Source: Flammeovirgaceae bacterium SG7u.111 (GTDB taxonomy: Bacteria > Bacteroidota > Bacteroidia > Cytophagales > Flammeovirgaceae). Taken from it: a DNA stretch of 64,000 bases. The notes under the pieces are model-generated. The model had not been told where the DNA came from and searched no databases. It saw only the letters and a list, made by a program, of their open reading frames with translations. Location: NCBI GenBank assembly GCA_034044135.1, contig CP139021.1, positions 1,255,635 to 1,319,634 of the forward strand. The letters run 5' to 3'. Of the stretch, positions 1,714 through 22,253 are shown piece after piece; the first letter of the stretch is position 1; each line of letters starts with the position of its first letter. The position numbers were made by a program, and so were the translations under genes.

Positions 1714-2379
1714 ATGAAGACCTTTTTTTTGCTTGGCAGCTTACTTTTTGCCTTCCACCTAGTGTTAGCACAGGACGACCCCGATCCACTCCGCTTCTCA
1801 TCCGAAATAGCTGTTTTCGATTCGCTCGACGCTGCCAACATGCCACCAAAAGGTTGCGTGCTGTTCATTGGGAGTTCTTCTATAAGGATGTGGAAAAGTG
1901 CTGAAAAGACCTTTAAAAAGTATCAGGTGATAAACCGTGGATTTGGTGGCTCGCAAGCCAGTGATGCTAATTTCTTTTACGATAGACTGGTAAAAATGTA
2001 CAGCCCTTCCAAAATTTTATACTACGAAGGCGATAACGACTTGGCTGTAGGAAAATCACCCGAGCGAGTGCTGAAGGACTTTAAGGTTTTTGTGGGAAAA
2101 GTAGAAAAAGACCTTCCCTCTGCCATTATTTATTTTTTATCCATCAAGCCAAGTCCTTCACGTTGGGAACTAGCTGATGCCATGCAAACCACCAACAAAA
2201 TGGTAATTGACTATTGCCAAGAAAAAGAAAACCTTGAGTTTGTCGATGTCTTTGAGCCTATGCTAGGAAAAGACGGTCGCCCCATCCCTAAACTCTTCAC
2301 CTCGGATAGTTTGCACATGACCCCAAAGGGGTATAAGATCTGGAAAAAAGAAGTGAAGCCTTTTTTGGAGAGCCGATAA
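1714..2379 (+). CDS. Secreted SGNH/GDSL-family hydrolase
   Basis: A 221-residue exported esterase or acylhydrolase. Residues 1-20 are a signal peptide ending in LVLAQ. The family blocks are visible: block I FIGSSSIRMW (nucleophile Ser within 54-56), block II RGFGGS, block III around EGDNDL (oxyanion Asn), and block V SDSLHMTPKGY with the catalytic Asp and His. The substrate cannot be told from sequence; relatives deacetylate polysaccharides or act on platelet-activating-factor-like esters. The 3' end of this gene is special here: a near-identical partial copy lies at 12881-12970 and a diverged one at 22187-22253, each beside an adhesin module. The gene ends at a perfect hairpin shared with the convergent porP-ompA gene. 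Confidence 0.88.
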   Translation: MKTFFLLGSLLFAFHLVLAQDDPDPLRFSSEIAVFDSLDAANMPPKGCVLFIGSSSIRMWKSAEKTFKKYQVINRGFGGSQASDANFFYDRLVKMYSPSKILYYEGDNDLAVGKSPERVLKDFKVFVGKVEKDLPSAIIYFLSIKPSPSRWELADAMQTTNKMVIDYCQEKENLEFVDVFEPMLGKDGRPIPKLFTSDSLHMTPKGYKIWKKEVKPFLESR

Positions 2380-2396
2380 AAACTTTCGCATAAAAA

Positions 2397-2427
2397 AACA
2401 GCCAAGCAGTAAAGTTGCTTGGCTGTT
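2397..2427. terminator. Bidirectional hairpin terminator, orientation 1
   Basis: A 12-bp perfect stem (2397-2408 with 2416-2427) encloses the loop GTAAAGT and is flanked by A and T runs. It lies between the convergent SGNH hydrolase and porP-ompA genes. The same hairpin occurs at 12988-13018 with its loop reverse-complemented. Confidence 0.85.
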
Positions 2428-2451
2428 TGCAAAAACTGGTTAAACTTGGCT

Positions 2452-3948
2452 TTAATACACCAATCTGAATTCCACCCTGCGGTTTTTCCGGCGTCCCTCA
2501 ACCGTGCCGTTGTCTCCCACAGGATCTTGCTCGCCCATACCAAATGTTTTGATATTTTCGGTATTTACCCCTTTTCCACCCAAGTATTCTTTCACGACTT
2601 CAGCCCTGTTCAAAGACAAAAAGGTATTCACCCTTTCCGTGCCTTGGTCGCAGGTGTAGCCCCTAAGCTCTATCTGGTAATCTTCTGTTTCTTTTTCTTT
2701 CAGTATCTTGGCTACCTTGTCTAGGAAAGCTTTTGAGTCTTGGTCAAGGTCGTAGGTATTGAACTCGAACCCGACTGGCTGCGCTATCGTCTGCTTTTCC
2801 ACTTCGGTGAAAACCTCTTTAGCAGCTTCTTCGGTTTCCTCTTCCACTTCTTCTTCCTTTTGCTCTGGCGCGGCAGGTTCTTCCACGGTTTCTGCCGCAT
2901 CACCGGTTTCCTCTGCTACTACCTCCTCTTCGGGCTCTACTACATTTTGCACGGTCTTGCCAACAAAAGCAGGTTTTTCCTTCTTTTGCAACCTAAAGGA
3001 AATGGCCAACTCGAACACACCCTTTTGTGCACTTCCCAACTCCGTGCCTATCGTTTTGTCATAGCTGAGCGCCAAAGTGAAACGAGGCTGTTCGTAAGCC
3101 AAAGAGAACACTCCATAGTCGTTGGTGTTGTACCAAATGCCCAGCTCTATTTTCTTGGCATTTTCCCCGCTTTGGGAAAGCTCGTAGGCAAACCTAGAGC
3201 CCACGTTCAAGAAGCTGTTCCCTGCTTGGTAAACAAGCCTGGCAGTTGGTAGCACCGAAAAACTTGCCCCCCTGTACACCCTGTACCCTGCCGTCGACTT
3301 AATAGTCATGGGCAAGTTGTCTTTCAGGTCGCCCATCAGCGAGGTATTCGGTCCGTTCACATTGAAGATGGACGCGCCGATGAACGCTTTTTCCAAGCCC
3401 AAATCGTCCTTTACCTTGTAGAACAATCCTCCGCTGATCACGGGATATCCTACCGATTGGTTCAAAACGGCATCGGTCGAAATGGCGTTCGGGTCAAAAA
3501 AACCGTTGACAAACTGTTCGTCGGTGGTAAATTCCCCTCCAGTTTTCCGTTGGAAAAATCCTGCTTGGAGTCCCATAGCCAGTTCTGAGTTTTTGGTAGT
3601 CTTTAGGCTATATGACAGCCCCAGCATCCCTCCATTCGAAGAGAGGAATTCTGAGTTTTTATCGTTTAGAAAATTGATTGCCGTCACCAACCTGTTATGC
3701 CCAATATAGATCGGGTAATAGGCAGAGACCGAAGACGATGTGATGTTCTCGTCCAAGTCCAATTGTTGGTTTCGGTAATTGAGCATCACCCTCGTATCCT
3801 CTACCGCACCGATCTCACCTGGGTTGGTGAAAAAGGGCGTGTAGTGGTACAGGCTAAAATTTGGCTCTTGCGCCTGGGCTGGGAAAGCCAAGAGCATAAG
3901 GCCTGCAAAATAGCTCGGAAGAAACCGTATTATTAATTTATTTTTCAT
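2452..3948 (-). CDS. PorP/SprF-family outer-membrane protein fused to OmpA-like domain (copy 1)
   Basis: 498 residues. A signal peptide (1-27, ending PAQAQ) precedes a PorP/SprF-type barrel (about 30-320) that starts with FSLYHYTPFFTNPGEIGA, the usual opening of this family. An acidic Glu/Pro linker follows (about 325-385), then an OmpA-like peptidoglycan-binding domain (390-498) with LSLNRAEVV and the closing NRRVEF motif. PorP/SprF proteins are outer-membrane partners of T9SS type-B substrates, for example SprF for SprB. The OmpA tail suggests that this one also grips the cell wall. It lies 30 bases downstream of the adhesin gene, almost certainly in one operon with it. The barrel half is nearly identical to that of the paralogue at 13045-14568, while the linker and OmpA domain have diverged. 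Confidence 0.88.
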   Translation of the reverse strand: MKNKLIIRFLPSYFAGLMLLAFPAQAQEPNFSLYHYTPFFTNPGEIGAVEDTRVMLNYRNQQLDLDENITSSSVSAYYPIYIGHNRLVTAINFLNDKNSEFLSSNGGMLGLSYSLKTTKNSELAMGLQAGFFQRKTGGEFTTDEQFVNGFFDPNAISTDAVLNQSVGYPVISGGLFYKVKDDLGLEKAFIGASIFNVNGPNTSLMGDLKDNLPMTIKSTAGYRVYRGASFSVLPTARLVYQAGNSFLNVGSRFAYELSQSGENAKKIELGIWYNTNDYGVFSLAYEQPRFTLALSYDKTIGTELGSAQKGVFELAISFRLQKKEKPAFVGKTVQNVVEPEEEVVAEETGDAAETVEEPAAPEQKEEEVEEETEEAAKEVFTEVEKQTIAQPVGFEFNTYDLDQDSKAFLDKVAKILKEKETEDYQIELRGYTCDQGTERVNTFLSLNRAEVVKEYLGGKGVNTENIKTFGMGEQDPVGDNGTVEGRRKNRRVEFRLVY

Positions 3949-3978
3949 GGTAATCGAGTTTTTTAATTGGGTGGGTGG

Positions 3979-6900
3979 TTATCTAGCTAAGCGGATGGTA
4001 CCAGAAGTTTTTCCGTCTATGGCAAGAGGGGAGCCATCGTCAAACTGGCCCCTTATGGTCCATAGGTAGACGCCTTGTGGCTGTTTATTGCCGTTGGTGG
4101 TCCCGTCCCATCCTGTTTGGGAAAGCTCTTCCCAGCTTTCGGAACTAAAGACAAGGTTCCCCTCCCTGTCGAATATGGAGAAGCCCACGCTCGCCAGGTT
4201 TCCCCCTCCGCGCATAAGGAATAGGTCGTTGGTACCGTCGCCGTTAGGGCTGAAAAGTGTGGGAAGGAAGAGGGCGCTTTCCTGTATCTCAAAAGTTTGT
4301 GACAAATCTGGTGCAGCGGCGAATATATCATTGCCCGCTTGGCTGGCCGTTACCGTTACCGTGCCAGGTCCTTCTATAACGATGGTGCCATCTACAAGTG
4401 AGGCGACCCCCGATGAGGGCTCGGTCACGATCGAAAAGGTGACGGGCAAGCCCGATCCTCCGCCCGTCGCCTCAAGGGCAAATGGGTTTTGGCCAACGCT
4501 TTTGTCCGGCAAGATGGCAAACAGAATGGACTGTGAAACTTTTTCAAAGGCTACGGTCGCTGTAGCCGAGGCTGTGTTTCCACTATGGTCGGTTACTGTA
4601 AGTGTTACCGTGGTTGAGGGTGTTTTGGGTGTGTCAAAACTAGAAATATCAAGTGTCCGGCTTGCTATGGAGCAATTGTCGGCGCTGCCATTGTCGATAT
4701 CGTCCACGGTAATGGATGCCTGTCCGTTTGTAGCCAAGGGCAAGGTGATGTCTTTTACGATGACGGTTGGTGGAAGCGTGTCCTCCACTGTAACAAAGGC
4801 ATCACAAGTGGCTGTATTCCCATTTATATCGGTCACTGTGAGGGTTACCTTGTTTTTTCCAATGTTGCTGCAATCGAAAGTTGTTTTATCCAATGAAATG
4901 GACGCTATCCCATAATCGTCGGAAGACCCGTTGTCGATTTGTGACGCCTCTATAGATGCTGTCCCATTGGCATCCAATTGCACGGTGATGTTTTGGCAGA
5001 TGACCTGACTGACCGTGCCGTCGTATTCAATGCTGAATTGGGTAGCTTTCGTGTTTCCGTTGGTAGCATCATCTTGTGCCACATCGGCTGCCACGTCGAT
5101 GGTGACCGTCCCGTCGGTAGCCGGGGTTATCAGGGCTGTATATTCCGAAGCGCTGTTGGCGATAAAGTTGCTTGCCGTGCCGTTCCCTACCACAATATCC
5201 CCGATCCCAAAACCTGTCACGTTTTCTGAAAAGGTAAAGGTTGTGGTGAAAGTGGCGTTTGTCGGATTGGCTGTTGTGCTTGAAATTGCGACTGTCGGGC
5301 CGGTCAAGTCTGCCTCTATGCTGAACTGGGTGGCTGCGGTGTTGCCGTTTGTCGCCGCGTCTTGTGCCACATCGGCTGCCACGTCGATGGTGACCGTCCC
5401 GTCGGTAGCCGGGGTTATCAGGGCTGTATATTCCGAAGCACTGTTGGCGATAAAGTTGCTTGCCGTTCCGTTCCCTACCACAATATCCCCGATCCCAAAT
5501 CCTGTCACGTTTTCTGAAAAGGTGAAGGTAGCGGTGAAAGCGGCGTTTGTCGGATTGGCTGTTGTGCTTGAAATTGCGACTGTCGGACCGGTCAGGTCTG
5601 CCTCGATGCTGAACTGGGTGGCTGCGGTGTTGCCGTTTGTGGCTGCATCTTGTGCCACGTCGGCTGCCACGTCGATGGTGACCGTCCCGTCGGTAGCCGG
5701 GGTTATCAGGGCTGTATATTCCGAAGCGCTATTGGTGGTAAAGTTGCTTGCCGTACCGTTCCCTACCACAATATCCCCGATCCCAAAACCCGTAACTGAT
5801 TCTGAGAAAGTAAAAGTCGCTGTAAAAGCCCCATTGATGGGGTCAACGGCAGTGCTTGAAATTGCGATTGTCGGCTCGGTCAGATCTGCCTCGATGCTGA
5901 ACTGGGTGGCTGCGGTGTTGCCGTTGGTCGCCGCGTCTTGTGCCACATCGGCTGCCACGTCGATGGTGACCGTCCCGTCGGTAGCCGGGGTTATCAGGGC
6001 TGTATATTCCGAAGCGCTGTTGGCGATAAAGTTGCTTGCCGTGCCGTTCCCTACCACAATATCCCCGATCCCAAAACCTGTCACGTTTTCTGAAAAGGTA
6101 AAAGTCGCTGTAAAAGCCCCATTGATGGGGTCAACGGCAGTGCTTGAAATTGCGATTGTCGGGCCGGTCAGGTCTGCCTCTATGCTGAACTGGGTGGCTG
6201 CGGTGTTGCCGTTGGTCGCCGCGTCTTGTGCCACATCGGCTGCCACGTCGATGGTGACCGTCCCGTCGGTAGCCGGGGTTATCAGGGCTGTATATTCCGA
6301 AGCGCTGTTGGCGATAAAGTTGCTTGCCGTGCCGTTCCCTACCACAATATCCCCGATCCCAAAACCTGTCACGTTTTCTGAAAAGGTGAAGGTAGCGGTG
6401 AAAGCGGCGTTTGTCGGATTGGCTGTTGTGCTTGAAATTGCGACTGTCGGCTCGGTCAGGTCTGCCTTGATGCTGAACTGGGTGGCTGCGGTGTTTCCGT
6501 TTGTGGCGTCATCTTGTGCCAGATCCGCTGCCACGTCGATGGTGACCGTCCCGTCGGTAGCCGGGGTTATCAGGGCTGTATATTCCGAAGCGCTGTTGGC
6601 GATAAAGTTGCTTGCCGTGCCGTTCCCTACCACAATATCGGTAATGTCAAAGCCTGTCACGTTTTCTGAAAAGGTGAAGGTAGTGGTGAAAGCGGCGTTT
6701 GTCGGATTGGCTGTTGTGCTTGAAATTGCGACTGTCGGCTCGGTCAGGTCTGCCTCTATGCTGAACTGGGTGGCTGCGCTGTTCCCGTTTGTGGCTTCAT
6801 CTTGTGCCAGATCCGCTGCCACGTCGATGGTGACCGTCCCGTCGGTAGCCGGGGTTATCAGGGCTGTATATTCCGAAGCGCTGTTGGCGGTAAAGTTGCT

Positions 6901-8964
6901 TGCCGTGCCGTTCCCTACCACGATATCGCCAACCCCAAAACCCGTAACTGATTCTGAGAAAGTAAAAGTCGCTGTAAAAGTCCCATTGATGGGGTCAACG
7001 GCAGTGCTTGAAATTGCGATTGTCGGGCCGGTCAGGTCTGCCTCTATGCTGAACTGGGTGGCTGCGGTGTTCCCGTTTGTGGCGTCATCTTGTGCCAGGT
7101 CCGCTGCCACGTCGATGGTGACCGTCCCGTCGGTAGCCGGGGTTATCAGGGCTGTATATTCCGAAGCGCTGTTGGCGGTAAAGTTGCTTGCCGTTCCGTT
7201 CCCTACCACAATATCCCCGATCCCAAAACCTGTCACGTTTTCTGAAAAGGTGAAGGTAGCGGTGAAAGCGGCGTTTGTCGGATTGGCTGTTGTGCTTGAA
7301 ATTGCGACTGTCGGGCCGGTCAGGTCTGCCTCTATGCTGAACTGGGTGGCTGCGGTGTTCCCGTTGGTCGCCGCGTCTTGTGCCACGTCCGCTGCCACGT
7401 CGATGGTGACCGTCCCGTCGGTAGCCGGGGTTATCAGGGCTGTATATTCCGAAGCACTGTTGGCGGTAAAGTTGCTTGCCGTTCCGTTCCCTACCACAAT
7501 ATCCCCGATCCCAAAACCCGTAACTGATTCTGAGAAAGTAAAAGTCGCTGTAAAAGCCCCATTGATGGGGTCAGCTACCAGACTTGTGATTGTTACTACT
7601 GGTGGAGTAATATCTTGCACTAAGAGGTCAAATGTGCATGAAGCATCATTCGAAGATACGTCTTCAGCCGACAGAGTAATTGTGGTTGTGCCTAGCCCAA
7701 TACTACTGCCTGCTAAAGGCAATTGGGTAATAGTAGGACTTCCGTCACAATTATCGGTGGCTGTAACCAAGGATGTATAATCTGGTACTAGAGCTGAGGT
7801 AACTCCGTCAATGTTAATGGTTTGATTGCTTGGGCAGCTAATCACAGGATCGGTATTATCAGACGGAATCACTTCAAACGTACATTGCCTGATATTTCCA
7901 TCCCCATCATTTGCAGTGAGTGTAATGGTTTGAGTGGCGGACAAAATAGAGCCTGGAGCGGGGGATTGGGTAATGGTAGGTGTACTACAGTTGTCATTGG
8001 CAGTAGCCAAACTCCTATAGTCAGGCAAAGTATATTGACAACTCGCATTAAAAGCTATTGCCTGATTACTCGGGCAAGTAATTGTAGGTTGATCATTTAC
8101 AATTTCTACAGATTGGGTTTTGAACTGAGAACATGCTCCTCCCGTGGTGTACCTCACCATATAGGTGCCCTCATTACTAGCCGACAAATCTATTTTACCC
8201 GTAGAACTATTGATAGAAAGACCCGAAGGAGAACTGGTGAATGTACCTCCTGCATCCCCTGATATAGTAGGCGTGGGATCAGGTAGATTAGAACAATAGC
8301 TGCTGCTGCCGTAACTAAAAGAAGGATCTCTAACTATCCCCAGTTTTGCTATTATTTTCAGATCTATATCGCTACTATAAACGCTAAGTAATTTTTCATT
8401 TCCAAATTTGGTTGTTGTAATACTATTGGAGTCATCTCCATTGCCCTGTCCTTTAGCATTAGCTTGGACAACCAGTTGATCACTGGCATCCCCAGGGTGC
8501 ATCACTACGCCAATATAAAATCTACTGGTAGTCGGAACTGGCAAAGAAGGCAGCTCAATCCAAAACTCTCTAAAATTATGCACCACCCCTAACGAAGTAG
8601 GTGAAAGACCTGTTACACCCCCGACCTGAGTGCCTGGTCTGCCTGACCCATTGTCATCATAAACCATCACATCAATCCTAAGATTATCATTGGCGTCCGA
8701 AAGAAACCCAAGACCTAATAAAACAGCTCCTACTGAGGTCGTGCCAGGGTTCGGGCTAGTGAATCCTTCAAAGATTGTTTTTGTGTCTGTTGGGGTTGTA
8801 GAATTCGATGGATCTGGTATACCTGTAAGCCTACCAGAAGCATAATTATAAACAGTTGTGGTTGGAGTGGGGGTTTCCCACTCATAGGATAACGTGTCAC
8901 AGTCTTGAGCCTTACTTTCAGTTATTACTATTAGTGTAAGTAGTAAGAATAATATTTTCTTCAT
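3979..8964 (-). CDS. Giant T9SS type-B surface protein with nine near-identical Ig-like repeats
   Basis: 1661 residues from the ATG at 8964. A longer reading frame to 9066 adds 34 polar residues in front of a good signal peptide (MKKILFLLLTLIVITESKAQ) and is less likely. After an N-terminal region of about 200 residues come two HYR-like segments (CPSNQ...). Nine 96-residue bacterial Ig-like repeats (about 454-1317) follow, each running from L-T-G/E-P-T through DIVVGNGTASNF to FSIEAD. Two further HYR-like segments and an MBG-like segment lead to a gliding-motility-associated C-terminal domain (about 1567-1661: LFLPTLFSPNGDGTND, WDGT, GVYLW, GTIRLAR). That last domain is the type-B T9SS sorting signal. 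The protein is therefore expected to be exported to the cell surface, probably as an adhesin, with the adjacent PorP-OmpA as its partner. The repeats are GC-richer than the N-terminal third. Confidence 0.88.
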   Translation of the reverse strand: MKKILFLLLTLIVITESKAQDCDTLSYEWETPTPTTTVYNYASGRLTGIPDPSNSTTPTDTKTIFEGFTSPNPGTTSVGAVLLGLGFLSDANDNLRIDVMVYDDNGSGRPGTQVGGVTGLSPTSLGVVHNFREFWIELPSLPVPTTSRFYIGVVMHPGDASDQLVVQANAKGQGNGDDSNSITTTKFGNEKLLSVYSSDIDLKIIAKLGIVRDPSFSYGSSSYCSNLPDPTPTISGDAGGTFTSSPSGLSINSSTGKIDLSASNEGTYMVRYTTGGACSQFKTQSVEIVNDQPTITCPSNQAIAFNASCQYTLPDYRSLATANDNCSTPTITQSPAPGSILSATQTITLTANDGDGNIRQCTFEVIPSDNTDPVISCPSNQTINIDGVTSALVPDYTSLVTATDNCDGSPTITQLPLAGSSIGLGTTTITLSAEDVSSNDASCTFDLLVQDITPPVVTITSLVADPINGAFTATFTFSESVTGFGIGDIVVGNGTASNFTANSASEYTALITPATDGTVTIDVAADVAQDAATNGNTAATQFSIEADLTGPTVAISSTTANPTNAAFTATFTFSENVTGFGIGDIVVGNGTASNFTANSASEYTALITPATDGTVTIDVAADLAQDDATNGNTAATQFSIEADLTGPTIAISSTAVDPINGTFTATFTFSESVTGFGVGDIVVGNGTASNFTANSASEYTALITPATDGTVTIDVAADLAQDEATNGNSAATQFSIEADLTEPTVAISSTTANPTNAAFTTTFTFSENVTGFDITDIVVGNGTASNFIANSASEYTALITPATDGTVTIDVAADLAQDDATNGNTAATQFSIKADLTEPTVAISSTTANPTNAAFTATFTFSENVTGFGIGDIVVGNGTASNFIANSASEYTALITPATDGTVTIDVAADVAQDAATNGNTAATQFSIEADLTGPTIAISSTAVDPINGAFTATFTFSENVTGFGIGDIVVGNGTASNFIANSASEYTALITPATDGTVTIDVAADVAQDAATNGNTAATQFSIEADLTEPTIAISSTAVDPINGAFTATFTFSESVTGFGIGDIVVGNGTASNFTTNSASEYTALITPATDGTVTIDVAADVAQDAATNGNTAATQFSIEADLTGPTVAISSTTANPTNAAFTATFTFSENVTGFGIGDIVVGNGTASNFIANSASEYTALITPATDGTVTIDVAADVAQDAATNGNTAATQFSIEADLTGPTVAISSTTANPTNATFTTTFTFSENVTGFGIGDIVVGNGTASNFIANSASEYTALITPATDGTVTIDVAADVAQDDATNGNTKATQFSIEYDGTVSQVICQNITVQLDANGTASIEASQIDNGSSDDYGIASISLDKTTFDCSNIGKNKVTLTVTDINGNTATCDAFVTVEDTLPPTVIVKDITLPLATNGQASITVDDIDNGSADNCSIASRTLDISSFDTPKTPSTTVTLTVTDHSGNTASATATVAFEKVSQSILFAILPDKSVGQNPFALEATGGGSGLPVTFSIVTEPSSGVASLVDGTIVIEGPGTVTVTASQAGNDIFAAAPDLSQTFEIQESALFLPTLFSPNGDGTNDLFLMRGGGNLASVGFSIFDREGNLVFSSESWEELSQTGWDGTTNGNKQPQGVYLWTIRGQFDDGSPLAIDGKTSGTIRLAR
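5015..7606 (-). repeat. Nine tandem 288-bp coding repeats in adhesin 1
   Basis: The period is exactly 288 bp; for example the same stretch recurs at 5093 and 5381. Nine units encode 96-residue Ig-like domains. Units fall into two interleaved types, one with TTANPTNAAF and one with TAVDPINGAF near the start, while the remaining two thirds of each unit is almost invariant. Confidence 0.95.
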
Positions 8965-9697
8965 TTTATAATGCCTTTTGTTTTCTAATCTTATGACAGA
9001 GTGATTTTTTGTCTTCGTAGTCAAAGCCTTTTGATCTATCACATAATTTTTATTAGCCTCTCTCAATTTCTCATTGTGTCTATAACTATGTTGCCATCAG
9101 AACAAGCAGTATTCAATAATCCTATGGATTCTCGTCTATTTCAAAATTTTGGCATGAGTAGCTATTGGTGGAATATGTATGATAGGAGGTGTGATAGTTA
9201 GGCTGTCAGATGTAGTTGATGCATCTAAAATAGTTGCAGAAAGTGAACCGCGACTATACTCTGGGCTACCAAAAAAGGTAACAGTTAGGGCATTTACTTT
9301 AGAAAGATGAGCAAAGCAAATAAAAGCTATAAGAGTCGCTCTATAGACTATTCGTTTTATTACTCGGTATTGCTTATTTTTTTTGGTATTGCACCACAAA
9401 TCTATTCTCATGTCTTGTTTTGTTCTTTAAGATTAAAGCGGATGTATATTCTTATCTTGGCATACAAGGGTTCGTGCCTTGGGCCATGAACTTTTTTGGT
9501 TTGCAAAAAAAACTTAAAAAAGAGTGTGTTTATTCGGTTTTTGGCGTAGACAGCCGAAATATGGCGCGAACAACAAAAAATTGGAGGGAGGTGGCATTAT
9601 AAGAAGCTATTTTGAAGATATATTTCAAAACAGCTTCAAAATGGATACCCGTATGTGGAAAAATACAACGGTGATAAAAGTACTAATAAATAGTAGG
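8965..9697. other. Spacer upstream of adhesin 1
   Basis: 733 bases between the adhesin 1 start and the end of the LytTR regulator gene. It should contain the adhesin promoter. The only candidate gene is the weak small frame at 9136-9411. No terminator, RNA gene or repeat was recognised. Confidence 0.4.
9136..9411 (-). CDS. Doubtful small exported protein
   Basis: A 91-codon frame. A basic stretch precedes a hydrophobic segment resembling a signal peptide (RATLIAFICFAHLSKVNA), followed by about 50 Ser/Thr/Ile-rich residues. I recognise no family. It sits between the LytTR regulator and adhesin 1 in the same orientation. It could be a real small secreted protein, a decayed fragment of a surface protein, or chance; the lack of any recognisable domain keeps confidence low. 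Confidence 0.25.
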   Translation of the reverse strand: MRIDLWCNTKKNKQYRVIKRIVYRATLIAFICFAHLSKVNALTVTFFGSPEYSRGSLSATILDASTTSDSLTITPPIIHIPPIATHAKILK

Positions 9698-10453
9698 TCA
9701 GCCCATTGATGAACCAATGCTATTGAGAAAAGTCTCTTTATAAGACCTACCAATGGGTACTGTGTAAGTACCTAGCAGTACCTCGTTTTGTTGAATGTTT
9801 ATTTCTGAAATTTTGTCTTTATTTATAATAAAAGAGCGATGAATCCTTAAAAAATGGTCATTTGTAAGCTTTTCTTGCAGCTTTTGCAAGGACATCCTGA
9901 TTTCAATAGTTTCCTTGGCTAGCCCAATTAGGCAGAACTTGTCTTTGGCTTCTACACAGAAGATGCCGCTTAGTTTTATTTTAATAAGCCTTCTTTTGCT
10001 TTTTATAAATAATTCCTCCTCAATAACACGGTCCTCGTTCCATCCTCTATAGTCACCTTGGGCTTGGCTGCTTTTTGTTTTGGAGAGTTTGTATACGGCG
10101 AGCTCTATGGCCGCCTGTAAGGTATCCTTATCATAAGGTTTGACGATATAGGCGTAAGGATCGGTCAATTTTGCCCTTTCAAAAGTTTCCTTGTCTCTGT
10201 AAGACGTGATGAAAATGGCTGGAATCGCTTTTTTCTTATTTAGGTGTTCCACAATCTGCACGCCATCAAAATCACCCTCCAAGTGGATATCTACTAGCAA
10301 CAAATCTGGTTGTGCAGCTTCGATCATTTTTAGTGCTTGGGTTGCATTTGAGGCCATTCCCGCTAGGTAATAGCCCATCTCATCTAGGTACATCTCTAGT
10401 CGGTTGGCATGGATGAAATCGTCTTCTATGATAAATACGCTTACTTTTGACAT
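9698..10453 (-). CDS. LytTR-family response regulator
   Basis: 251 residues. The N-terminal receiver (about 4-120) has acidic residues E10/D11/D12, phospho-acceptor D55 (LLLVDIHLEG) and the KP motif in IVKPYDKDT. The C-terminal LytTR DNA-binding domain (about 145-247) has the characteristic FLRIHRSFIINKDKI segment. LytTR regulators bind paired direct repeats upstream of target genes. The gene starts 12 bases after the TPR histidine kinase stop, so the two form a two-component operon. Its position just upstream of adhesin 1 suggests, but does not show, that the adhesin is a target. Confidence 0.93.
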   Translation of the reverse strand: MSKVSVFIIEDDFIHANRLEMYLDEMGYYLAGMASNATQALKMIEAAQPDLLLVDIHLEGDFDGVQIVEHLNKKKAIPAIFITSYRDKETFERAKLTDPYAYIVKPYDKDTLQAAIELAVYKLSKTKSSQAQGDYRGWNEDRVIEEELFIKSKRRLIKIKLSGIFCVEAKDKFCLIGLAKETIEIRMSLQKLQEKLTNDHFLRIHRSFIINKDKISEINIQQNEVLLGTYTVPIGRSYKETFLNSIGSSMG

Positions 10454-12970: not shown

Positions 12971-12987
12971 AAACTTTCGCATAAAAA

Positions 12988-13044: not shown

Positions 13045-14568
13045 CTAGTAAACGACTTTAAACTCGACCCTACGGTTATGTTCCCTACCCTCTGGGGTGT
13101 CGTTGCCTTCTAACGGGACCTCTTCGCCCATGCCCACGGTCTTGATGCTGTTTATGTCGACCCCCTTTCCCACAAGGTAATCCTTTACGGTCTCTGCCCT
13201 GTTCAGCGAGAGGAACTTGTTCACCTTTTCCGAACCTAGGTCACAGCTATGTCCCACCAGCTCAATCTCGAATCCTTCTTTTTCCCTAAGGATATCGGCA
13301 ATCCCATTCAAAAAGGCTTTGGATTCCTTATCAAGGTCATAAGTGTTTAAATCAAAGTTTACGATTTTTGCCAGGATGGCTTTTTCGGCAGGGGTGAAGG
13401 TCGTTTTGCTAACTGCGACTTCTTCGGGCACATCAGGTTTTTCCTCTGGGGCAGTTGTCTCTTCTTCCACTACCTTTTGCTCTGGTGCGGCAGGTTCTTC
13501 CACTTCTTCCATGGTTTCTGCCGCATCATCGATTTCCTCTACCGCTACTTCCTCGGGCCCAATAACCTCTTGCACCGCGGCTTCAACAAAAGTAGGTTTT
13601 TCCTTCTTCTGTAACCTAAAGGAAATGGCCAACTCGAACACACCCTTTTGTGCACTTCCCAACTCCGTGCCTATCGTTTTGTCATAGCTTAGCGCCAAAG
13701 TAAAGCTTGGTTGTTCGTAAGCCAAAGAGAATACACCATAATCATTGGTATTGTACCAAATACCCAGCTCTATTTTTTTTGCATTTTCTCCACTCTGCGA
13801 TAGCTCGTAGGCAAACCTAGAGCCTACGTTCAAAAAGCTGTTCCCTGCTTGGTAAACCCACCTTGCTGTAGGCAATACGGAAAAATTGCCCCCTCTGAAC
13901 ACCCGATATCCTGCCGTACCTTTTATACTCATGGGCAAGTTATCTTTCTGGTCGCCCATCAGCGAAATATTCGGTCCGTTCACATTGAAGATAGATGCGC
14001 CAATGAATGCCTTTTCCAAGCCCAAATCGTCCTTTACCTTATAAAACAACCCTCCGCTGATGATAGGATATCCTACCGACTGGTTTAATACCGCATCGGT
14101 AGAAATAGCATTCGGGTCGAATACACCGTTGACAAACTGCTCGTCGGTGGTGAACCCTTCCCCTATCTTTCTTTGGAAAAACCCGGCTTGGAGACCAAAG
14201 CTCAACTCAGAGCTTTTCGTTGTTTTTAGGCTATATGACAGCCCCAGCATCCCGCCATTGGACGAGAGAAACTCAGAGTTCTTGTCGTTTAGGAAATTGA
14301 TAGCCGTCACCAACCTGTTATGCCCAATATAGATCGGGTAATAGGCAGAGACCGAAGACGATGTGATGTTCTCGTCCAAGTCCAGTTGTTGGTTTCGGTA
14401 GTTGAGCATCACTCGTGTATCTTCTACCGCACCTATCTCACCCGGATTGGTGAAAAAAGGTGTGTAGTGATACAAACTGAAATTTGGCTCTTGCGCCTGA
14501 GCCGAACTGGCCAATAGCAGGCATCCTACTATTATCGGCAGCAGCCTTTTTATCGATTTCTTGTTCAT
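13045..14568 (-). CDS. PorP/SprF-family outer-membrane protein fused to OmpA-like domain (copy 2)
   Basis: 507 residues with the same plan as copy 1: signal peptide (1-26, ending SSAQAQ), PorP/SprF barrel (about 28-320), acidic Pro/Glu linker (about 330-395), and an OmpA-like domain (400-507) with LSLNRAETV and the closing NRRVEF motif. The barrel differs from copy 1 at only scattered positions, whereas linker and OmpA domain differ at roughly a third or more of positions. It lies 28 bases downstream of adhesin 2. The expected role is as the dedicated outer-membrane partner or anchor of that T9SS type-B adhesin, with a peptidoglycan contact. Confidence 0.88.
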   Translation of the reverse strand: MNKKSIKRLLPIIVGCLLLASSAQAQEPNFSLYHYTPFFTNPGEIGAVEDTRVMLNYRNQQLDLDENITSSSVSAYYPIYIGHNRLVTAINFLNDKNSEFLSSNGGMLGLSYSLKTTKSSELSFGLQAGFFQRKIGEGFTTDEQFVNGVFDPNAISTDAVLNQSVGYPIISGGLFYKVKDDLGLEKAFIGASIFNVNGPNISLMGDQKDNLPMSIKGTAGYRVFRGGNFSVLPTARWVYQAGNSFLNVGSRFAYELSQSGENAKKIELGIWYNTNDYGVFSLAYEQPSFTLALSYDKTIGTELGSAQKGVFELAISFRLQKKEKPTFVEAAVQEVIGPEEVAVEEIDDAAETMEEVEEPAAPEQKVVEEETTAPEEKPDVPEEVAVSKTTFTPAEKAILAKIVNFDLNTYDLDKESKAFLNGIADILREKEGFEIELVGHSCDLGSEKVNKFLSLNRAETVKDYLVGKGVDINSIKTVGMGEEVPLEGNDTPEGREHNRRVEFKVVY

Positions 14569-14596
14569 TTTAATGATGTCTTTAAAATTGGATTTA

Positions 14597-17500
14597 TTAT
14601 CTAGCTAACCTAATAGTGCCTTTGGTTTTCCCACCTACGGTAATAGGTGTGCCCGTGGTAAATTCGCCTTTCAACACCCAGATGTACACACCTTGCGGTT
14701 GCTTCGTACCATTGGTAGTTCCATCCCAGCCTATTTCCGAAAGCTCATCCAAACTTTCCGACCTGTACACCTCGTTTCCATCTCTATCGAAAATACTCAG
14801 GGTGATAGTGGAGATATTTCCCCCTCCTCTCAGTACAAATTGGTCGTTTGTTAGGTCGCCGTTCGGGCTAAACAAGGTTGGCAAGAACAGCTCGCCAGAA
14901 GTCACCTCAAAAGTGTGGGTTACGTCGGCTGCAACTGTATAAAACTCGTTGCCAGCTTGGCTAGCCGTTACCGTTACTGTTCCCGTTCCTTCAATGGTCA
15001 GTTCGCTGCCATTGAGCGTGGCAACATCAGAAGAAGGGCTCGTGCTAAGCGTATAAGTTACCGGCAATCCCGAATCGCCTCCTGTTGCCTCCAATTGGAT
15101 AACCTGGCCTCCGAAAGTCAGATCGGGCAAAGCAGAGAAGGTGATCGTTTGTACTATTTTTTCAACAGTCAATGTTGCTTTTAGCTCTACGCTAGCACAA
15201 TTAGAGTTCGGGTCAACAGTGGCTATTACCTCATAAGTCCCCGGTGCAGTATGCCCATTGTTTTGGTACGAAACTGTCGCCCCCGAAGGCAAGCCAGAAA
15301 CTGCAAGACTGTGTTCAGAACCATTGTAAGTAACCGTAGCGTCTTCAAACGTCACGTTTGCAATGGAAGAAGCTTCTACCGTGATATTTTGTGTTTGTGT
15401 AGAAGTATTCCCGCTTTCGTCTTCATAGGTCCAAGTGATGACCGTTGTGCCTGCCGTGGTGATGGGGAAAGTAACATCGTTGGTTACCGTTACCTTTCCA
15501 CTGCTATTATCCGTAGCAGTAGGGGTGGGAACATCCGCAGTCGTTACTTCACAATTCATCGTAATAGCCGATAGGCTTGCCACATCAGGTGTAGGAGCAA
15601 TTTTATCTTGAATGGTCACATCTACTTCCCCACTAACATTGGTTCCATCGCTTACTGTCAACGATAAGGTATATACCGATGCTGTTGCAAAATCTAAGGC
15701 TGAGACATCTTGAATGGTTACCTCACCAGTTGTAGGGTTGATGGCAAATACATTTCCTCTATTGCCGCTTATGATTGTCCAGTTGGAGAAGGTGGTTCCT
15801 GCATCTATATCTGTTGCTGCCACCGTTCCTACCGAAGTTCCGTTGCTTATAGAAGTTGGCAGATCGAAGTTTTGGCTAGCCGTGATTGCTGGGATATCAT
15901 TTACCGGGTCCACCGTCACGATCATGTCCACGGAAGCGGTCGTCTCCGTGCCGTCTGTCACCTTGACGGGGACGGTCAGCGTGCCGTGGAAGTTGGCTGC
16001 CGGCGTGATCGTAGAATCCGAGACCGTATAGTTTGCACCCGATTCTACTATCAAATAGAGGTTGTCGCCGTCAACATCATCAGCATCGGTCATTGCCATA
16101 CCTAGTTGCAAGCTGTTGTCCTCGTCGAGGCTCTGTGCGCTTGCCGAAGCCAAGGTCGGAGCGTCGTTCACCGGGTTCACCGCCACTGTCATGTCCACGG
16201 AAGCGGTCGTCTCCGTGCCGTCTGTCACCTTGACGGGGACGGTCAGCGTGCCGTGGAAGTTGGCTGCCGGCGTGATCGTAGAATCCGAGACCGTATAGTT
16301 TGCACCCGATTCTACTATCAAATAGAGGTTGTCGCCGTCAACATCATCAGCATCGGTCATTGCCATACCTAGTTGCAAGCTGTTGTCCTCGTCGAGGCTC
16401 TGTGCGCTTGCCGAAGCCAAGGTCGGAGCGTCGTTCACCGGGTTCACCGCCACTGTCATGTCCACGGAAGCGGTCGTCTCCGTGCCGTCTGTCACCTTGA
16501 CGGGGACGGTCAGCGTGCCGTGGAAGTTGGCTGCCGGCGTGATCGTAGAATCCGAGACCGTATAGTTTGCACCCGATTCTACTATCAAATAAAGTGCATC
16601 GTCTTCTATGTCTGCAGCGTTCGTCATCGCAACACCTAGTTGAAGACTGTTGTCCTCGTCCACGCTTTGTGCTGTTGCAGAAGTGAGGCTCGGTACATCA
16701 TTCACCGAATTCACCGTCACGATCATGTCCACCGAAGAGGTCGTATCCGTGCCGTCCGTGACCTTCACGGGTACGGTCAGCGTGCCGTTGAAATTAACCG
16801 TTGGCGTAATAGAAGAATCTGAGACCGTATAGTTTGCACCCGATTCTACTATCAAATAGAGGTTGTCACCATCGACATCAGAAGCATCCGTCATCGCAAC
16901 ACCAAACTGGAGGCTGTTGTCCTCGTCTACGCTTTGGGCGGTTGCGGTAGAAAGTGTTGGCGCATCATTTTCATTGGTTACTGTGATTACTATTGGAATG
17001 ATTACATCGCCTCCAAACACCTCATCGGTAAGGGTATCATTAAGGTTTAATATGTTTGAACCTCCATTATTAGCGATGATATCTTCAAAATCTACATCCG
17101 CTCTAGTGGTAACCTCTAAAGTAACTGGATTAATTACAAAATGGTCCCCAATATTTGGGTTAGCCGAGATAAAAATCCCTGATCCATTATCCACAGAAAT
17201 CGTACCTACACTAGTTCCTATAGCTACATTTTCAGCTACTGTAAGACTTGCTGTGACTGCTGGGGCAGTTGCTGGAATTACTTTACCTAAAAATACATTG
17301 TCGATACTAATTCCATCGGTATTTACTGGGAAATTATCGTTTTGTGAAAACCTAAGTTGACAAGTACTTGTAAAATTTAATGCGTTATCTCTTAAAATCT
17401 GATCTATATCAATACCTTGAACATCGGTCCAACTTCCGTTATTGCTATTTGTAGCAAAATCATAAATTTCAATAAAAGGATCACTTTCATTGGTTCTAAA

Positions 17501-19921
17501 CTCAACGACATCTCTAACATCTCCTTCGTCCCCATGATCATACCAAGAAAAGTATAACCGAATATCATCTGCAGGATTGTTTATATCAAAACTGCTTAAA
17601 TCTAAGTTTACTGTAACTTCATTAAAACTGTTACCTCCTGGATTATCCAATGTTACCATTTGTCTACTATTTCTAGTATAATCATTACGGACAGAAAATC
17701 TGCCACCAGAAGTGACTTGATCATATTCCCAACCTATTAAACCGTCAAAATAGAATCGATCTTCCTGAACAGTTAATAAAACAGATCCTGTACCTGTAGT
17801 AACAATACTTTCAAAATCTTCACTTAGAGGTGCTGTAACTCTAGACCTATTACCAATTATGAAAACAATTGAGTCGTTAGAAGCATCTGCATCGCTAGTT
17901 ACCTTGCTAGTAACTGTAAGTTTATAATTTCCATCCTTAGAAAAATCAAAATTATCTGGGAAGGTAAAATTAGTACTTGTTCCTGGCAGTACGTTTGCCA
18001 GTACGGTGCCTGAAGAAGTACCTAATAGTGTTCCATTGAAAGTTACCGATAAAGTCAACGGTATATTAGTTAACGGAACAGTTCCCATATTGCTTACTTC
18101 TACTTCTACAATAGTAGTTGTAATGTCAAATTGAGTAACTGGAGAAATAACTTGTGATATACTGGCATCTATCTCATCATACTGAATACTAAATTGAAGT
18201 GCCGTGTCATTATTATTACCCGCTAAATCTTGGGAAACCCCTGAAGCTATATCTACCGTTACATTACTTCCTGTAGGGTTAATATCAGCTGTAAAAACTA
18301 TATTATCTGTAGTATTAAAATTGGTAGCTGTCCCATTACCCACCGTAATATCACCTACTACAAAACCAGAAACTTCCTCGCTGAACGTAATTGTTACTGG
18401 GATAGGATTGTCGCTTGTTGGGTTGCTGGAGGTTGTAGATAAGGATACCGTTGGGGCTACAGTCTCCTTTGTCTCGGTATCTGTTGTTGCACTGCCCGTG
18501 TTCCCGTTTACATCTGTCAGGGTCACGCTCAGGGAGATCGTGCCATCAGCTAGGCCAGTTAGGTCTAAGCCCGTGATCTGGTCGGTAGCTGTCGCTATCG
18601 TCCCGCTGCCCGTGACCGAGCCTGCGCCGCCACTACTTGTAAAAGTATAGTTGTAGGTAGCCCCAATCTCTGCTCCTGCAAAGGTGAAACTCATTACATC
18701 ATCATTGTTGGCATTAATAACCGATTGATCAATAGTTACTAAATAGCCGGAAGGAGCCGTATTATCTACTACAAAAGTATTGTTGTTCGTTCCTGTCGGG
18801 GTCAAGTTAACCAGTGCATTGCCAGATGCATCTGCAATGTCTTGTCCTCCGGCAAAGCCTAAGGTCACTGTTGCAGTCAAACCTGCCAGGTCTCCGCCCG
18901 AAGCCGTCACACGATAAACATTCCCGCTTGGGTTTGTGACCGATGCAATCGTCCCTGTCGTTCCTGTCACAGTGAAATCTGTTGCGTCCACATTGGCTAC
19001 CGCTCCATCAAAAGTCACGTCCCAAACCAAAGCATCTGAATTCGTTGGGCTTGTAGTTGGGCTTTGACGTGCAATACTGCTAATTAAAGGAGCAACATTA
19101 TCAACAACAGTAATTGAAAAAACTTCTGCAAAATCATCAGTTCCATCATTGGTGTTGATTCTTACACTGTATGAACCTGCCGTAAGTGCCGATGATGTTC
19201 TTATGGTATTACCACTAATATTAAAACTTCCATTATTAGTATCACCTGTTCCACTTACTAAGGAGTATGTATGCGAATCCCCTGCATCGGCATCAGTAGT
19301 AGTTAATGTTCCAACTGTCACGTTAACTCCTGTAGCGGTCTGGTTAATAGAGTTATTGGATAATGAGATGTCTGTGGGAACTGCGTTGGAAGCTCCAACT
19401 ATATCGATTTCGAAAAGCAAGTCAAGTGTACTCTGAGCACCCCCTGCAAAATATAATATTCCGCCAGTATAACTTGGCGAATTGGACTGGTCATAATGTA
19501 ACTCTGCCGTTGAGAGATCAAATGTGTAGGTCTGTCCGGATGTCAGCGTAATACCTTCTCCAGAGAAATCAAATTCTGAATAGTCAGTGTATAATGCTGG
19601 AATTACTCCTGTTGCCTGGGTTATGCTTTGGCTAGTTAAGGATCCTAAGACGGAGCCTGCAAACCCATCCCCTTCATAAATAGTCACGGTAATACCTGAG
19701 ACATTGTTTGAAGCAACTACCCTGAGTGCATCCAGTGTCCCGGTGCAGGTAGCCTGAAAACTTTGACTCCATCGGGACGAACCACCAGCTTGAGGAAGGC
19801 TTATATCAGTATTGGCAGGAGTACATTGGGAAAACCCTTCGTTGACTAGTATAAATGATGAAATTATCCAGAAGGAAACTAATCCATAAAATTGCTTTTT
19901 CATTTTTTTTATCGTTATCAT
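14597..19921 (-). CDS. Giant T9SS type-B surface protein with cadherin-like repeats
   Basis: 1774 residues. The ATG at 19921 directly follows the stop of the formyltransferase gene; an alternative ATG at 19903 (MKKQFYG...) would give a cleaner signal peptide. Order: signal peptide; N-terminal domain; cadherin-like segments; one Ig-like unit like those of adhesin 1 (about 490-585, DITVGNGTATNF); CARDB-like region (about 590-690); a jelly-roll-like region beginning PLSEDFES (about 700-860); four 89-residue cadherin-like repeats (987-1342); another cadherin; HYR and MBG segments; and a type-B sorting domain (about 1680-1774, ending GTIRLAR). Export by T9SS to the surface is expected, probably as an adhesin. 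The MBG-plus-sorting tail is homologous to that of adhesin 1. Confidence 0.87.
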   Translation of the reverse strand: MITIKKMKKQFYGLVSFWIISSFILVNEGFSQCTPANTDISLPQAGGSSRWSQSFQATCTGTLDALRVVASNNVSGITVTIYEGDGFAGSVLGSLTSQSITQATGVIPALYTDYSEFDFSGEGITLTSGQTYTFDLSTAELHYDQSNSPSYTGGILYFAGGAQSTLDLLFEIDIVGASNAVPTDISLSNNSINQTATGVNVTVGTLTTTDADAGDSHTYSLVSGTGDTNNGSFNISGNTIRTSSALTAGSYSVRINTNDGTDDFAEVFSITVVDNVAPLISSIARQSPTTSPTNSDALVWDVTFDGAVANVDATDFTVTGTTGTIASVTNPSGNVYRVTASGGDLAGLTATVTLGFAGGQDIADASGNALVNLTPTGTNNNTFVVDNTAPSGYLVTIDQSVINANNDDVMSFTFAGAEIGATYNYTFTSSGGAGSVTGSGTIATATDQITGLDLTGLADGTISLSVTLTDVNGNTGSATTDTETKETVAPTVSLSTTSSNPTSDNPIPVTITFSEEVSGFVVGDITVGNGTATNFNTTDNIVFTADINPTGSNVTVDIASGVSQDLAGNNNDTALQFSIQYDEIDASISQVISPVTQFDITTTIVEVEVSNMGTVPLTNIPLTLSVTFNGTLLGTSSGTVLANVLPGTSTNFTFPDNFDFSKDGNYKLTVTSKVTSDADASNDSIVFIIGNRSRVTAPLSEDFESIVTTGTGSVLLTVQEDRFYFDGLIGWEYDQVTSGGRFSVRNDYTRNSRQMVTLDNPGGNSFNEVTVNLDLSSFDINNPADDIRLYFSWYDHGDEGDVRDVVEFRTNESDPFIEIYDFATNSNNGSWTDVQGIDIDQILRDNALNFTSTCQLRFSQNDNFPVNTDGISIDNVFLGKVIPATAPAVTASLTVAENVAIGTSVGTISVDNGSGIFISANPNIGDHFVINPVTLEVTTRADVDFEDIIANNGGSNILNLNDTLTDEVFGGDVIIPIVITVTNENDAPTLSTATAQSVDEDNSLQFGVAMTDASDVDGDNLYLIVESGANYTVSDSSITPTVNFNGTLTVPVKVTDGTDTTSSVDMIVTVNSVNDVPSLTSATAQSVDEDNSLQLGVAMTNAADIEDDALYLIVESGANYTVSDSTITPAANFHGTLTVPVKVTDGTETTASVDMTVAVNPVNDAPTLASASAQSLDEDNSLQLGMAMTDADDVDGDNLYLIVESGANYTVSDSTITPAANFHGTLTVPVKVTDGTETTASVDMTVAVNPVNDAPTLASASAQSLDEDNSLQLGMAMTDADDVDGDNLYLIVESGANYTVSDSTITPAANFHGTLTVPVKVTDGTETTASVDMIVTVDPVNDIPAITASQNFDLPTSISNGTSVGTVAATDIDAGTTFSNWTIISGNRGNVFAINPTTGEVTIQDVSALDFATASVYTLSLTVSDGTNVSGEVDVTIQDKIAPTPDVASLSAITMNCEVTTADVPTPTATDNSSGKVTVTNDVTFPITTAGTTVITWTYEDESGNTSTQTQNITVEASSIANVTFEDATVTYNGSEHSLAVSGLPSGATVSYQNNGHTAPGTYEVIATVDPNSNCASVELKATLTVEKIVQTITFSALPDLTFGGQVIQLEATGGDSGLPVTYTLSTSPSSDVATLNGSELTIEGTGTVTVTASQAGNEFYTVAADVTHTFEVTSGELFLPTLFSPNGDLTNDQFVLRGGGNISTITLSIFDRDGNEVYRSESLDELSEIGWDGTTNGTKQPQGVYIWVLKGEFTTGTPITVGGKTKGTIRLAR
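15897..16964 (-). repeat. Four tandem 267-bp cadherin-like coding repeats in adhesin 2
   Basis: The spacing is exactly 267 bp between landmark positions 15897, 16164, 16431, 16698 and 16965. The units at 15897-16163 and 16164-16430 are almost identical at the DNA level; the outer two are more diverged. Each encodes an 89-residue domain containing DEDNSLQ and YTVSDS. Confidence 0.93.
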
Positions 19922-20874
19922 TTATATAATAATCTTAGATTTCTTAATTGATGGATTTTGATTTTGTAATCCAAACTTTTCATCCTGACGAATCCCCAAA
20001 GCAGCAAGTTTATTACCTGATAATATTGCTTCCTGACTTCTAATAATATTTATTTTTAAAAACTTATAATCACTGCATAACACAAACAACCCCTCTATCT
20101 GACTCGCATGTACAATGCTTCCCGGCCTCAGTATTGTAGCATCAGCCATGGTGGCAGGACTTACTTCTAAAACTCGTACGATTGCATTTCTAAAATAGGT
20201 AATCGCTCCTCCATATACTGGGTTTGATGCATTTACCAATGCCTCAATCTGATCCGCTGTTTGGTTTTGCCAGTCAATTGTCAACTCTTCCTGTGTAGGT
20301 CTTTTTTTAAGGATTACATTATGTACTGTGGTAGGTCTTTCGTTCCTCTTTCGTTCCTCTTTAATTTCTCCAATAGAGGCCCCCTCATGTTGGCAGACAA
20401 TTGGCTGAGTCTACTACCTAGCAGTCCATAATTTTCTCCTGGATAAATCGCAGATTGTTCTCTGTGAATCACTGGTCCAGAATCCATCGTCTCAATCATC
20501 TGTTGCACAGTGATCGTTGCTGTTCTTTCTTCATTTTTAATCATCCAAAACAAAGGGTCTGATCCTCCATAAGTTGGTATTGGACCGAAATGGATGTTTA
20601 AAGGTCCTTTTTTAGGTGTACATATAACGTTCTCTGGGATTTTAAATGGAAAAGTAAGACATATCGCCAAATCAGGATTTAGTTCCTGCAACCATGGAAT
20701 AAGGTCTGCTGAGAGGTTTTCTTTGGAGACTTGAAAAATTGGTATGTTATTGTTGCCATATGATCCTCGTCTCGATCTGTAGTAGGAGGGAGAACCTATA
20801 GCTGATAGAGAACTGACTGAAAGTGTCAGTTGGAAGCATGCGGTACCAATAGATTTTAGGAAATTATTCTTCAT
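19922..20874 (-). pseudogene. Formyltransferase disrupted by an 11-bp tandem duplication
   Basis: The N-terminal part (20314-20874) has the formyltransferase core with the Asn-His pair (LNIHFGPIPTYGG) and the later Asp (ETMDSGPV), the catalytic trio of the Fmt family. The C-terminal part (TIDWQNQTADQIEALVNA) is an Fmt-C-like domain in another frame (19922 to about 20340). The frames are separated by the 11-bp direct repeat at 20338-20359. Removing one unit gives a continuous 313-residue protein (...KRNERPTTVHNVILKKRP...), the normal size for this family. Its start overlaps the sulfotransferase stop by ATGA and its stop abuts the adhesin 2 start. The acceptor is unknown, perhaps an amino sugar or amine rather than tRNA. 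It is inactive as it stands unless slippage restores the frame. Confidence 0.85.
20338..20359 (-). repeat. 11-bp tandem duplication causing a frameshift
   Basis: Two adjacent copies of TTTCGTTCCTC on the plus strand (20338-20348 and 20349-20359). Losing one copy joins the two formyltransferase frames exactly, so this unit is the likely lesion or a reversible switch. Confidence 0.92.
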
Positions 20875-21752
20875 ATTTTTAATATTAGGATCGATCCTAA
20901 TTTGTTTAAAGCGGTTAGTTGGTTTTGTTTTGGTGCTATGACACTAGCAGCTGTGTCAGCGGTGTCAGACCAAAAGACCATTTCGCTATATTTCTGAAAT
21001 AAATCGGGGGGCAATATGCTTCTCCTCGACCTGAACTCTACTTTCTTCTTTACGGCATGGAGTCCTTTCACCCCGATGTTCTCGTCAAACTCGTCGTGGG
21101 TAAACTCTACATTGTTGAAATCATGGTCAAACTAAGCTTCCCCAATGAACTGGTACATAAGCTTCATGGTCTTTTCGGGATGCGAGGCTAGCAAGTCATA
21201 ATCTATCAAAAGGAGCTTGTCTGAATATTCGCCATAGTAGGCCTCTTTGAGGGCGGTCCAAGCTGCCCCTACAATCCCCCCGTTCACCATACTCTCGCAC
21301 CATGAATAAACCGTGTGCCGGTTTCCCGGGCTGAACATCTTGCTGTAGTTAAAGGGGTTTTTCCTATACACTTTCTCAAAGCTGTCCATTACCCAAGCAG
21401 GGTTTCGTACACAGCAGATCACCTTGAAGTCGCCGAACAACTCTACCAACTGGTGTAGCTTAGAAGTCCACATTCGGTTGGTATCGAAGATAATATCATG
21501 CTGAAGTTTATCTTCGTAATACGCATTGAATACGGCATTGCACATGTTTTTGCGTTTCTGGTCATCAAAGAAACTATAAAACTCACTTCCTGCGCCTATT
21601 TGCTCTAGCACACCATTTATAAGAGAGCCTGCCGGACTGCTCATACTCGCATGAAAGCGTGGGTTTTGGCATAGGATACTTGATAATAAGGTGGAGCCCG
21701 AACGTGGCATTCCTGAAATAAAATGGACTTTCTGCATGATATTGAATTTCAA
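20871..21752 (-). pseudogene. PAPS-dependent sulfotransferase interrupted by an in-frame amber codon
   Basis: The first 206 residues (21132-21752) carry the PAPS-binding P-loop ISGMPRSGSTLL (12-23) and the second PAPS element VICCVRNPAWV. At 21132-21134 an in-frame TAG interrupts YQFIGEA*FDHDFNNVEF; beyond it the same frame runs to 20871 with the usual C-terminal features (SRRSILPPDLFQKYSEMVFW). The repaired product would be 293 residues, normal for this family. Such enzymes move sulfate from PAPS to sugars, peptides or lipids in the cytoplasm. The stop overlaps the formyltransferase start by four bases (ATGA), implying coupled translation and one operon with adhesin 2. As sequenced, only a truncated enzyme would be made. 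Confidence 0.85.
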
Positions 21753-22186
21753 AAAGTGTTAGATGATTCAAGTAGTTGGTGTATCGTTATTGATGAAAAT
21801 CTAGCGCTTTTGTGAAAAAAAAACACAATGTTGAAATAGGTTTAAAGGAGCTAAACCGCATGTAAATAGTTAGTGGAAATCTTCAGTAAAGGGGCGGGTT
21901 ATCTGCTTGAAAAAAGCTGTTGGGGAAGGGTTTTCTGTTGATTCAATTGCCTGGTTCATGTGCAGTAGTAATTTTTATCAATAGTTTTTTTCTTGTGAGC
22001 AAAACGATATTTTTCAGTTTTATTGAGAAAAGATTGTATTATCTTATCAAATAATTATAAAAACAATTTTATTAAAGTTTTTTTCTTTGTTAAAAGAATT
22101 TTGTTTCAAAACTTATTTCCTGTTCAAGCCTGTTTGCTTTTGCCGTTAACCTGCATATCTTCTTAGTAGAAAAAATATTTCTCCCA
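21753..22186. other. Spacer upstream of the sulfotransferase-adhesin 2 operon
   Basis: 434 AT-rich bases with several A and T tracts (around 21820, 22060-22110). They should contain the promoter of the sulfotransferase-formyltransferase-adhesin operon. No ORF, terminator or RNA gene is evident. They end in the SGNH remnant at 22187. Confidence 0.35.
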
Positions 22187-22253
22187 ATAGCTTGCACATG
22201 AAGGCAAAAGGTTATAAGATTTGGAAAAAAAGAAGTAGAACCTTTTTCTAAAA
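22187..22253 (+). pseudogene. Diverged 3'-end remnant of SGNH hydrolase gene (copy C)
   Basis: About four of five bases match 2307-2372 of the SGNH hydrolase gene, including codons for the block-V LHM and GYKIWKK. An extra A in the A-run after TGG shifts the frame, at the same place where copy B gained one base. It lies just before the ATG of the nucleotidyltransferase gene and in the same strand. It marks the right edge of adhesin module 2. Confidence 0.7.

Follow-up and report, generated by a model that had tools for sequence, protein, structure and literature searches.

Organization of the locus

The locus lies at positions 1714 to 23036 of the window (the whole 64,000-nucleotide stretch of the Flammeovirgaceae bacterium SG7u.111 genome analyzed here), between two genes on the plus strand. 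The left gene encodes an intact SGNH/GDSL hydrolase (1714 to 2379; 221 amino acids; Pfam Lipase_GDSL_2, PF13472, E value 7e-13) and is the sole full-length close copy found in a genome-wide search, while the right edge is formed by a nucleotidyltransferase gene (22260 to 23036; PF00483). The interval holds two groups of genes on the minus strand, here called cassettes 1 and 2. In minus-strand order, cassette 1 encodes a TPR histidine kinase (10466 to 12487) and a LytTR response regulator (9698 to 10453), both recognized by Pfam, followed by adhesin 1 (listed open reading frame, 3979 to 9066; the true start is probably an ATG later than the listed one) and a PorP/SprF-OmpA fusion (PorP-OmpA 1, 2452 to 3948; PF11751 and PF00691). 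Cassette 2 encodes a sulfotransferase-like protein (21132 to 21752; PF13469, E value 1e-15), a formyltransferase (19922 to 20874), adhesin 2 (14597 to 19921), and a second PorP/SprF-OmpA fusion (PorP-OmpA 2, 13045 to 14568; PF11751 above cut-off). The two accessory genes that an earlier note on this DNA had assigned to cassette 2 are both present, but the reading frame of the formyltransferase gene is broken in two, with Formyl_trans_N and Formyl_trans_C on separate open reading frames. Since it is a single open reading frame of 316 to 322 amino acids in relatives, the split copy is a probable pseudogene, judging from its reading frames.

Adhesin 1 contains an HYR domain and nine Big_12 stretches (288-bp repeats), and adhesin 2 contains Big_12, cadherin-like, and Big_9 domains. 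Both end in a C-terminal CHU_C type B sorting domain (PF13585; E values of 1e-13 and 3e-14), and each is directly followed downstream, in the same orientation and after a gap of about 30 bp, by its PorP/SprF gene. The description of both intervals as having the same core holds for the pairing of an adhesin with PorP-OmpA, but the adhesins themselves are alike over only about 260 C-terminal residues. Near-identical Ig-like repeats of 288 bp occur in adhesin 1 (5027 to 7573), and repeats of 267 bp occur in adhesin 2 (15896 to 16969); the number of repeats may therefore differ between strains.

Type B substrates of Flavobacterium johnsoniae need a cognate PorP/SprF shuttle (PMC12618676), and PorP-like proteins have been proposed as anchors of type B proteins at the surface (PMC9143113). 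By analogy, each adhesin is expected to use its own PorP/SprF-like shuttle for export through the type IX system and to be held at the cell surface. The whole genome contains 11 PorP/SprF and 17 CHU_C matches over the cut-off, including seven adjacent adhesin-PorP pairs, so the pairing itself is ordinary. By themselves, the PorP/SprF and CHU_C genes assign the organism to the Bacteroidota.

Direct repeats of the SGNH 3′ end

Self-comparison confirmed three copies of the SGNH 3′ end, all on the plus strand, as the earlier note had reported. Copy 1 (2290 to 2428) consists of the final 90 bases of the intact SGNH gene and a terminator hairpin 3′ of the gene, with the loop GTAAAGT. Copy 2 (12880 to 13020) is a truncated and frameshifted SGNH 3′ end followed by the terminator, in which the 7-nt loop is inverted, and copy 3 (22187 to 22247) is a diverged and frameshifted SGNH tail lying immediately before the start of the nucleotidyltransferase gene. 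A direct repeat of the 3′ end of the presumptive target gene is present at the cassette borders, with copies starting at 2290, 12880, and 22187. The ends given previously for the first two copies were too short, as the terminator belongs to the repeat. Copy 3, for which an alignment no better than chance had been considered, is 82 to 84% identical (E value 5e-9), and its best local score against the SGNH gene was 39, compared with a maximum of 21 among 200 shuffles. No further SGNH-tail copy was found in a DNA search of the 7.7-Mb genome, which returned only these three places and a reverse match of the hairpin.

Copies 1 and 2 agree at 130 of 139 positions and are 98.5% identical outside the inverted loop, the differences being two substitutions, a one-base insertion, and the loop itself. 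This near-identity extends beyond the SGNH stop codon and through the terminator hairpin to 13020. On its left side, copy 2 begins abruptly at 12880, with no SGNH resemblance immediately before it. The points at which copies 2 and 3 are truncated nearly coincide in the SGNH codons, lying within about 16 bp of each other, and no similarity was seen between the sequences preceding them when these were compared directly. The SGNH tail and terminator stand directly downstream of PorP in both cassettes, and beyond the terminator the alignment of copies 1 and 2 goes on, lower and patchy, into both porP-ompA genes and the 3′ ends of the adhesin genes (75% identity overall for 2290 to 4377 against 12880 to 14995).

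The hairpins of copies 1 and 2 have an unchanged 13-bp stem and an exactly inverted 7-nt loop. Because the stems are identical and the loops exactly inverted, the two hairpins (2396 to 2428 and 12987 to 13020), which are separated by 10.6 kb, constitute a perfect inverted repeat of 34 nt. The loop inversion fits a template-switch mutation, by analogy with the inversion of perfect hairpin loops through replication template switching (PMC8794818).

Uneven divergence along the repeated unit

The two PorP-OmpA genes are mosaics. Their products share 91% identity in the barrel (324 residues) and 63% in the OmpA part (105 residues), and the conserved barrel lies between an OmpA domain that is saturated at silent sites and an adhesin C terminus that is near or beyond saturation. 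Barrel dS is mostly 0.27 to 1.3 per 40-codon block, with a higher value in the first block and saturation in one block, and the longest identical run in the barrel is 82 nt, a length reached in none of 5,000 shuffles. PorP1 and PorP2 are sisters in both the barrel tree (100/100) and the OmpA tree (95/97). The adhesin C-terminus tree does not group the window pair as sisters, yet their sisterhood is not rejected (p-AU, 0.33). With its homogenized barrel next to OmpA and adhesin ends that diverge, the pair gives a hint as to which portion of the shuttle may be generic and which may be matched to its own adhesin.

Divergence is thus uneven along the unit, from 98.5% identity in the SGNH tail and terminator (loop excluded) to saturated dS in the OmpA and adhesin ends. 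The near-identity of a functionless SGNH tail beside saturated coding sequence means that the paralogues had split long before the tail was copied or overwritten. Tandem duplication followed by divergence, which had earlier been put forward as the simpler explanation, fails on its own to account for this contrast.

The two operons in other genomes

The order TPR kinase, LytTR, adhesin, and PorP recurs in one genome (G273) and, with two adhesins, in another (G411). The order formyltransferase, adhesin, and PorP-OmpA recurs in six (G252, G285, G525, G513, G496, and G476). These genomes with single cassette kinds belong to another family of the order. Because both operon kinds occur singly elsewhere, cassette 1 and the formyltransferase-adhesin-PorP-OmpA core of cassette 2 are distinct operons and not one duplicated unit. 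The mosaic structure together with the distinct operons shows that a single tandem duplication with later divergence is not an adequate explanation. The proposal of two separate cassettes with their own accessory genes stands in this respect, but it does not extend to the sulfotransferase, for which the relatives' cassettes yielded no counterpart. In the relatives' type 2 adhesin operons, a gene for a protein of about 375 amino acids adjoins the formyltransferase gene. The operon of G525 (L158, 16484 to 19266) has an additional gene of 192 amino acids, and in the two genomes subjected to Pfam analysis, Peripla_BP_6 was identified in G525 and G496 and a phage-tail Collar domain in G525.

The TPR kinase is 67 to 68% identical and LytTR 68 to 74% identical in G273 and G411. 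Across 390 genomes of the order, the kinase exceeded the cut-off (E value 1e-150) in three genomes, namely, that of the window, G273, and G411, and it was absent above this cut-off from every other member of the window's own family. In contrast, the SAM hydroxide adenosyltransferase encoded in the same window is only 38 to 43% identical to that group. A kinase so well conserved across families and, at this cut-off, missing from the other members of its own family makes horizontal transfer of the operons from outside the family likely, as read from these identities, and differential loss among those other members is an alternative that we do not favor over transfer. The sequence before the window's kinase gene has no match to the corresponding sequence of the relatives.

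Homologues of the SGNH and nucleotidyltransferase genes in relatives (about 40 to 54% identity) sit in unrelated surroundings, and the family does not share a gene order around the locus; the genus is represented by one genome among those searched. Neither an empty SGNH-nucleotidyltransferase interval nor one with a single cassette was found in the genomes searched, where gene order is not conserved. A DUF5686 gene of the window (27027 to 29531) is 88% identical in G011, far above neighboring genes, and is the only gene shared there.

Survey of adhesin-PorP regions for flanking repeats

We compared 53 adhesin or PorP regions with 40 random control regions. Flanking direct repeats were found in 3 of the former and 2 of the latter (2 and 0, respectively, for repeats longer than 150 bp), and the comparison does not support the idea that direct repeats generally flank adhesin-PorP pairs. 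As a pattern in the subfamily, bracketing repeats are suggestive and not significant. In a distant relative (G450), a 1,057-bp direct repeat of 98.4% identity (L163, 4592 to 5645 and 16226 to 17281) lies on both sides of an adhesin-PorP pair. It consists of two neighboring genes, one for a LytTR protein and one for a serine hydrolase, and each gene is complete in one copy of the repeat and truncated in the other; sister genomes of G450 yielded no match to these two genes. In G476, an acyltransferase-like gene has its last ~130 codons repeated beyond an adhesin-PorP pair as a decayed, intergenic remnant of 75% identity (L166, 1540 to 2051 and 17265 to 17679).

Origin of the tandem arrangement

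We tentatively favor, as an account that may well be correct, the stacking of alternative type IX adhesin operons at one site by recombination that carried the flanking SGNH 3′ end along, followed by gene conversion. The interval between the SGNH and nucleotidyltransferase genes would be a variable chromosomal site for such operons, whose alternative occupants would share the SGNH tail and terminator as their outer flank, and two of them, probably acquired from outside the family, would have come to stand side by side. Incoming DNA from a closely related strain, carrying the SGNH 3′ end, the terminator, PorP2, and adhesin 2 in this order, may have been placed beside cassette 1 by a recombination event with homology on one side and an illegitimate junction at 12880, where the truncated SGNH tail would have been left behind. 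The broken SGNH tails at the borders are thus probably scars of stacking recombination, copy 3 being perhaps an older one of the same kind, and subsequent gene conversion would have kept both PorP barrels alike.

Several observations are consistent with the stacking of alternative operons: the two operon kinds are found singly elsewhere; the kinase and LytTR are far more similar across families than the adenosyltransferase, with the kinase not found above the cut-off in the rest of its own family; the SGNH tail and terminator are nearly identical beside OmpA and adhesin ends saturated at silent sites; the barrel combines low dS in most blocks with the 82-nt identical run; and the junction at 12880 is abrupt. 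The long bracketing repeat in G450 and the seven adhesin-PorP pairs in the genome that contains the window point the same way. Of the two proposed recombination junctions, the one at 12880 is sharp, and placing the homologous one would require a recipient sequence; no donor was found. On the other hand, PorP1 and PorP2 are sisters in both trees, which fits duplication within the lineage as well, and sisterhood of the adhesin C termini is not rejected. Frequent gene conversion could homogenize the SGNH tail too, copy 3 is short enough to be a leftover of another SGNH gene, and repeats around adhesin-PorP pairs are no commoner than in random regions.

The main rival is an old tandem duplication within the lineage, comprising the SGNH 3′ end, terminator, PorP-OmpA, and adhesin end, with later swaps of adhesin and accessory genes and repeated gene conversion of the tail, terminator, and barrel. 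It holds this place because PorP1 and PorP2 are sisters and because homology runs unbroken from the SGNH tail into the adhesin ends, and the patchy identity is of the kind that conversion makes. We regard it as possible, though not probable: it requires very recent conversion of a dead SGNH tail that left the adjacent OmpA part untouched, the accessory genes come from two operon kinds that exist separately elsewhere, and copy 3 needs an additional event.

A further reading concerns copy 3 alone and is compatible with any other explanation of copies 1 and 2, which would then remain to be explained. Copy 3 could be the decayed tail of a separate SGNH gene, unrelated to the cassettes, that once stood beside the nucleotidyltransferase gene. 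It is short, the conserved DxxH catalytic motif falls within the SGNH 3′ end, which would hence stay recognizable longest, and tandem SGNH genes exist in G011. This too is possible, though not probable: copy 3 has 84% DNA identity to copy 1, whereas the SGNH genes of relatives are mostly about 65 to 77% identical to either over comparable lengths.

A generalization, that adhesin-shuttle operons in these Bacteroidota accumulate at the 3′ ends of ordinary genes, integrase-free and duplicating the tails, so that remnants would record successive arrivals, appears improbable at present. The remaining possibility, raised in the earlier note, that each cassette is an integrating element with the SGNH 3′ end as attachment site, which supplies a new 3′ end and so builds a tandem array (the integrase being elsewhere or lost), would fit the nearly coincident cuts of copies 2 and 3 and an accretion order of copy 2 then copy 3 by age, but is very improbable, given that no recombinase was recognized among the annotated genes from 1714 to 23036, in agreement with that note's own remark that no integrase is seen between the copies, that near-identity passes the SGNH stop and runs into PorP homology, that most adhesin-PorP operons elsewhere lack such gene-end repeats, and that the same cassettes in other genomes show no SGNH-like border. 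The nearest transposase found is an IS4/5-type gene outside the window, to its left (L132, 8594 to 9376).

Under the stacking of alternative operons, the locus is a specific example of a way in which bacteria with type IX secretion may enlarge their adhesion repertoires, with whole adhesin operons acquired together with their own shuttle and regulators, stacked, and partly homogenized.

Comparison with known systems

The cassettes resemble the SprB/SprF pairs of Flavobacterium johnsoniae (PMC12618676, PMC9143113) in having a large CHU_C type B adhesin gene with a PorP/SprF gene directly after it. They differ in that PorP is here fused to an OmpA domain and that two unlike operons are arranged in tandem, their borders marked by probable gene-end scars. 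The loop inversion described in RNA genes (PMC8794818) is likewise exact and leaves the stem unchanged; here, it concerns 7 nt and distinguishes two copies of the terminator of a protein-coding gene.

Natural transformation and conjugation are known to give recombinants in which one junction is homologous and the second illegitimate (PMC3240628), and tandem duplications can result from transformation (PMC3784515). The proposed stacking resembles such merodiploids and homology-facilitated illegitimate recombination in that DNA is added beside a resident copy, with partial duplication of the flank or one nonhomologous junction. Those cases were laboratory crosses in other phyla. Within the same phylum, surface-protein loci of Porphyromonas gingivalis are described as diversified by recombination between strains through allelic exchange and domain rearrangement (PMC5266723). 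The likeness lies in surface-protein loci being diversified in this way, and the difference is that alleles are exchanged there, whereas two operons lie side by side here.
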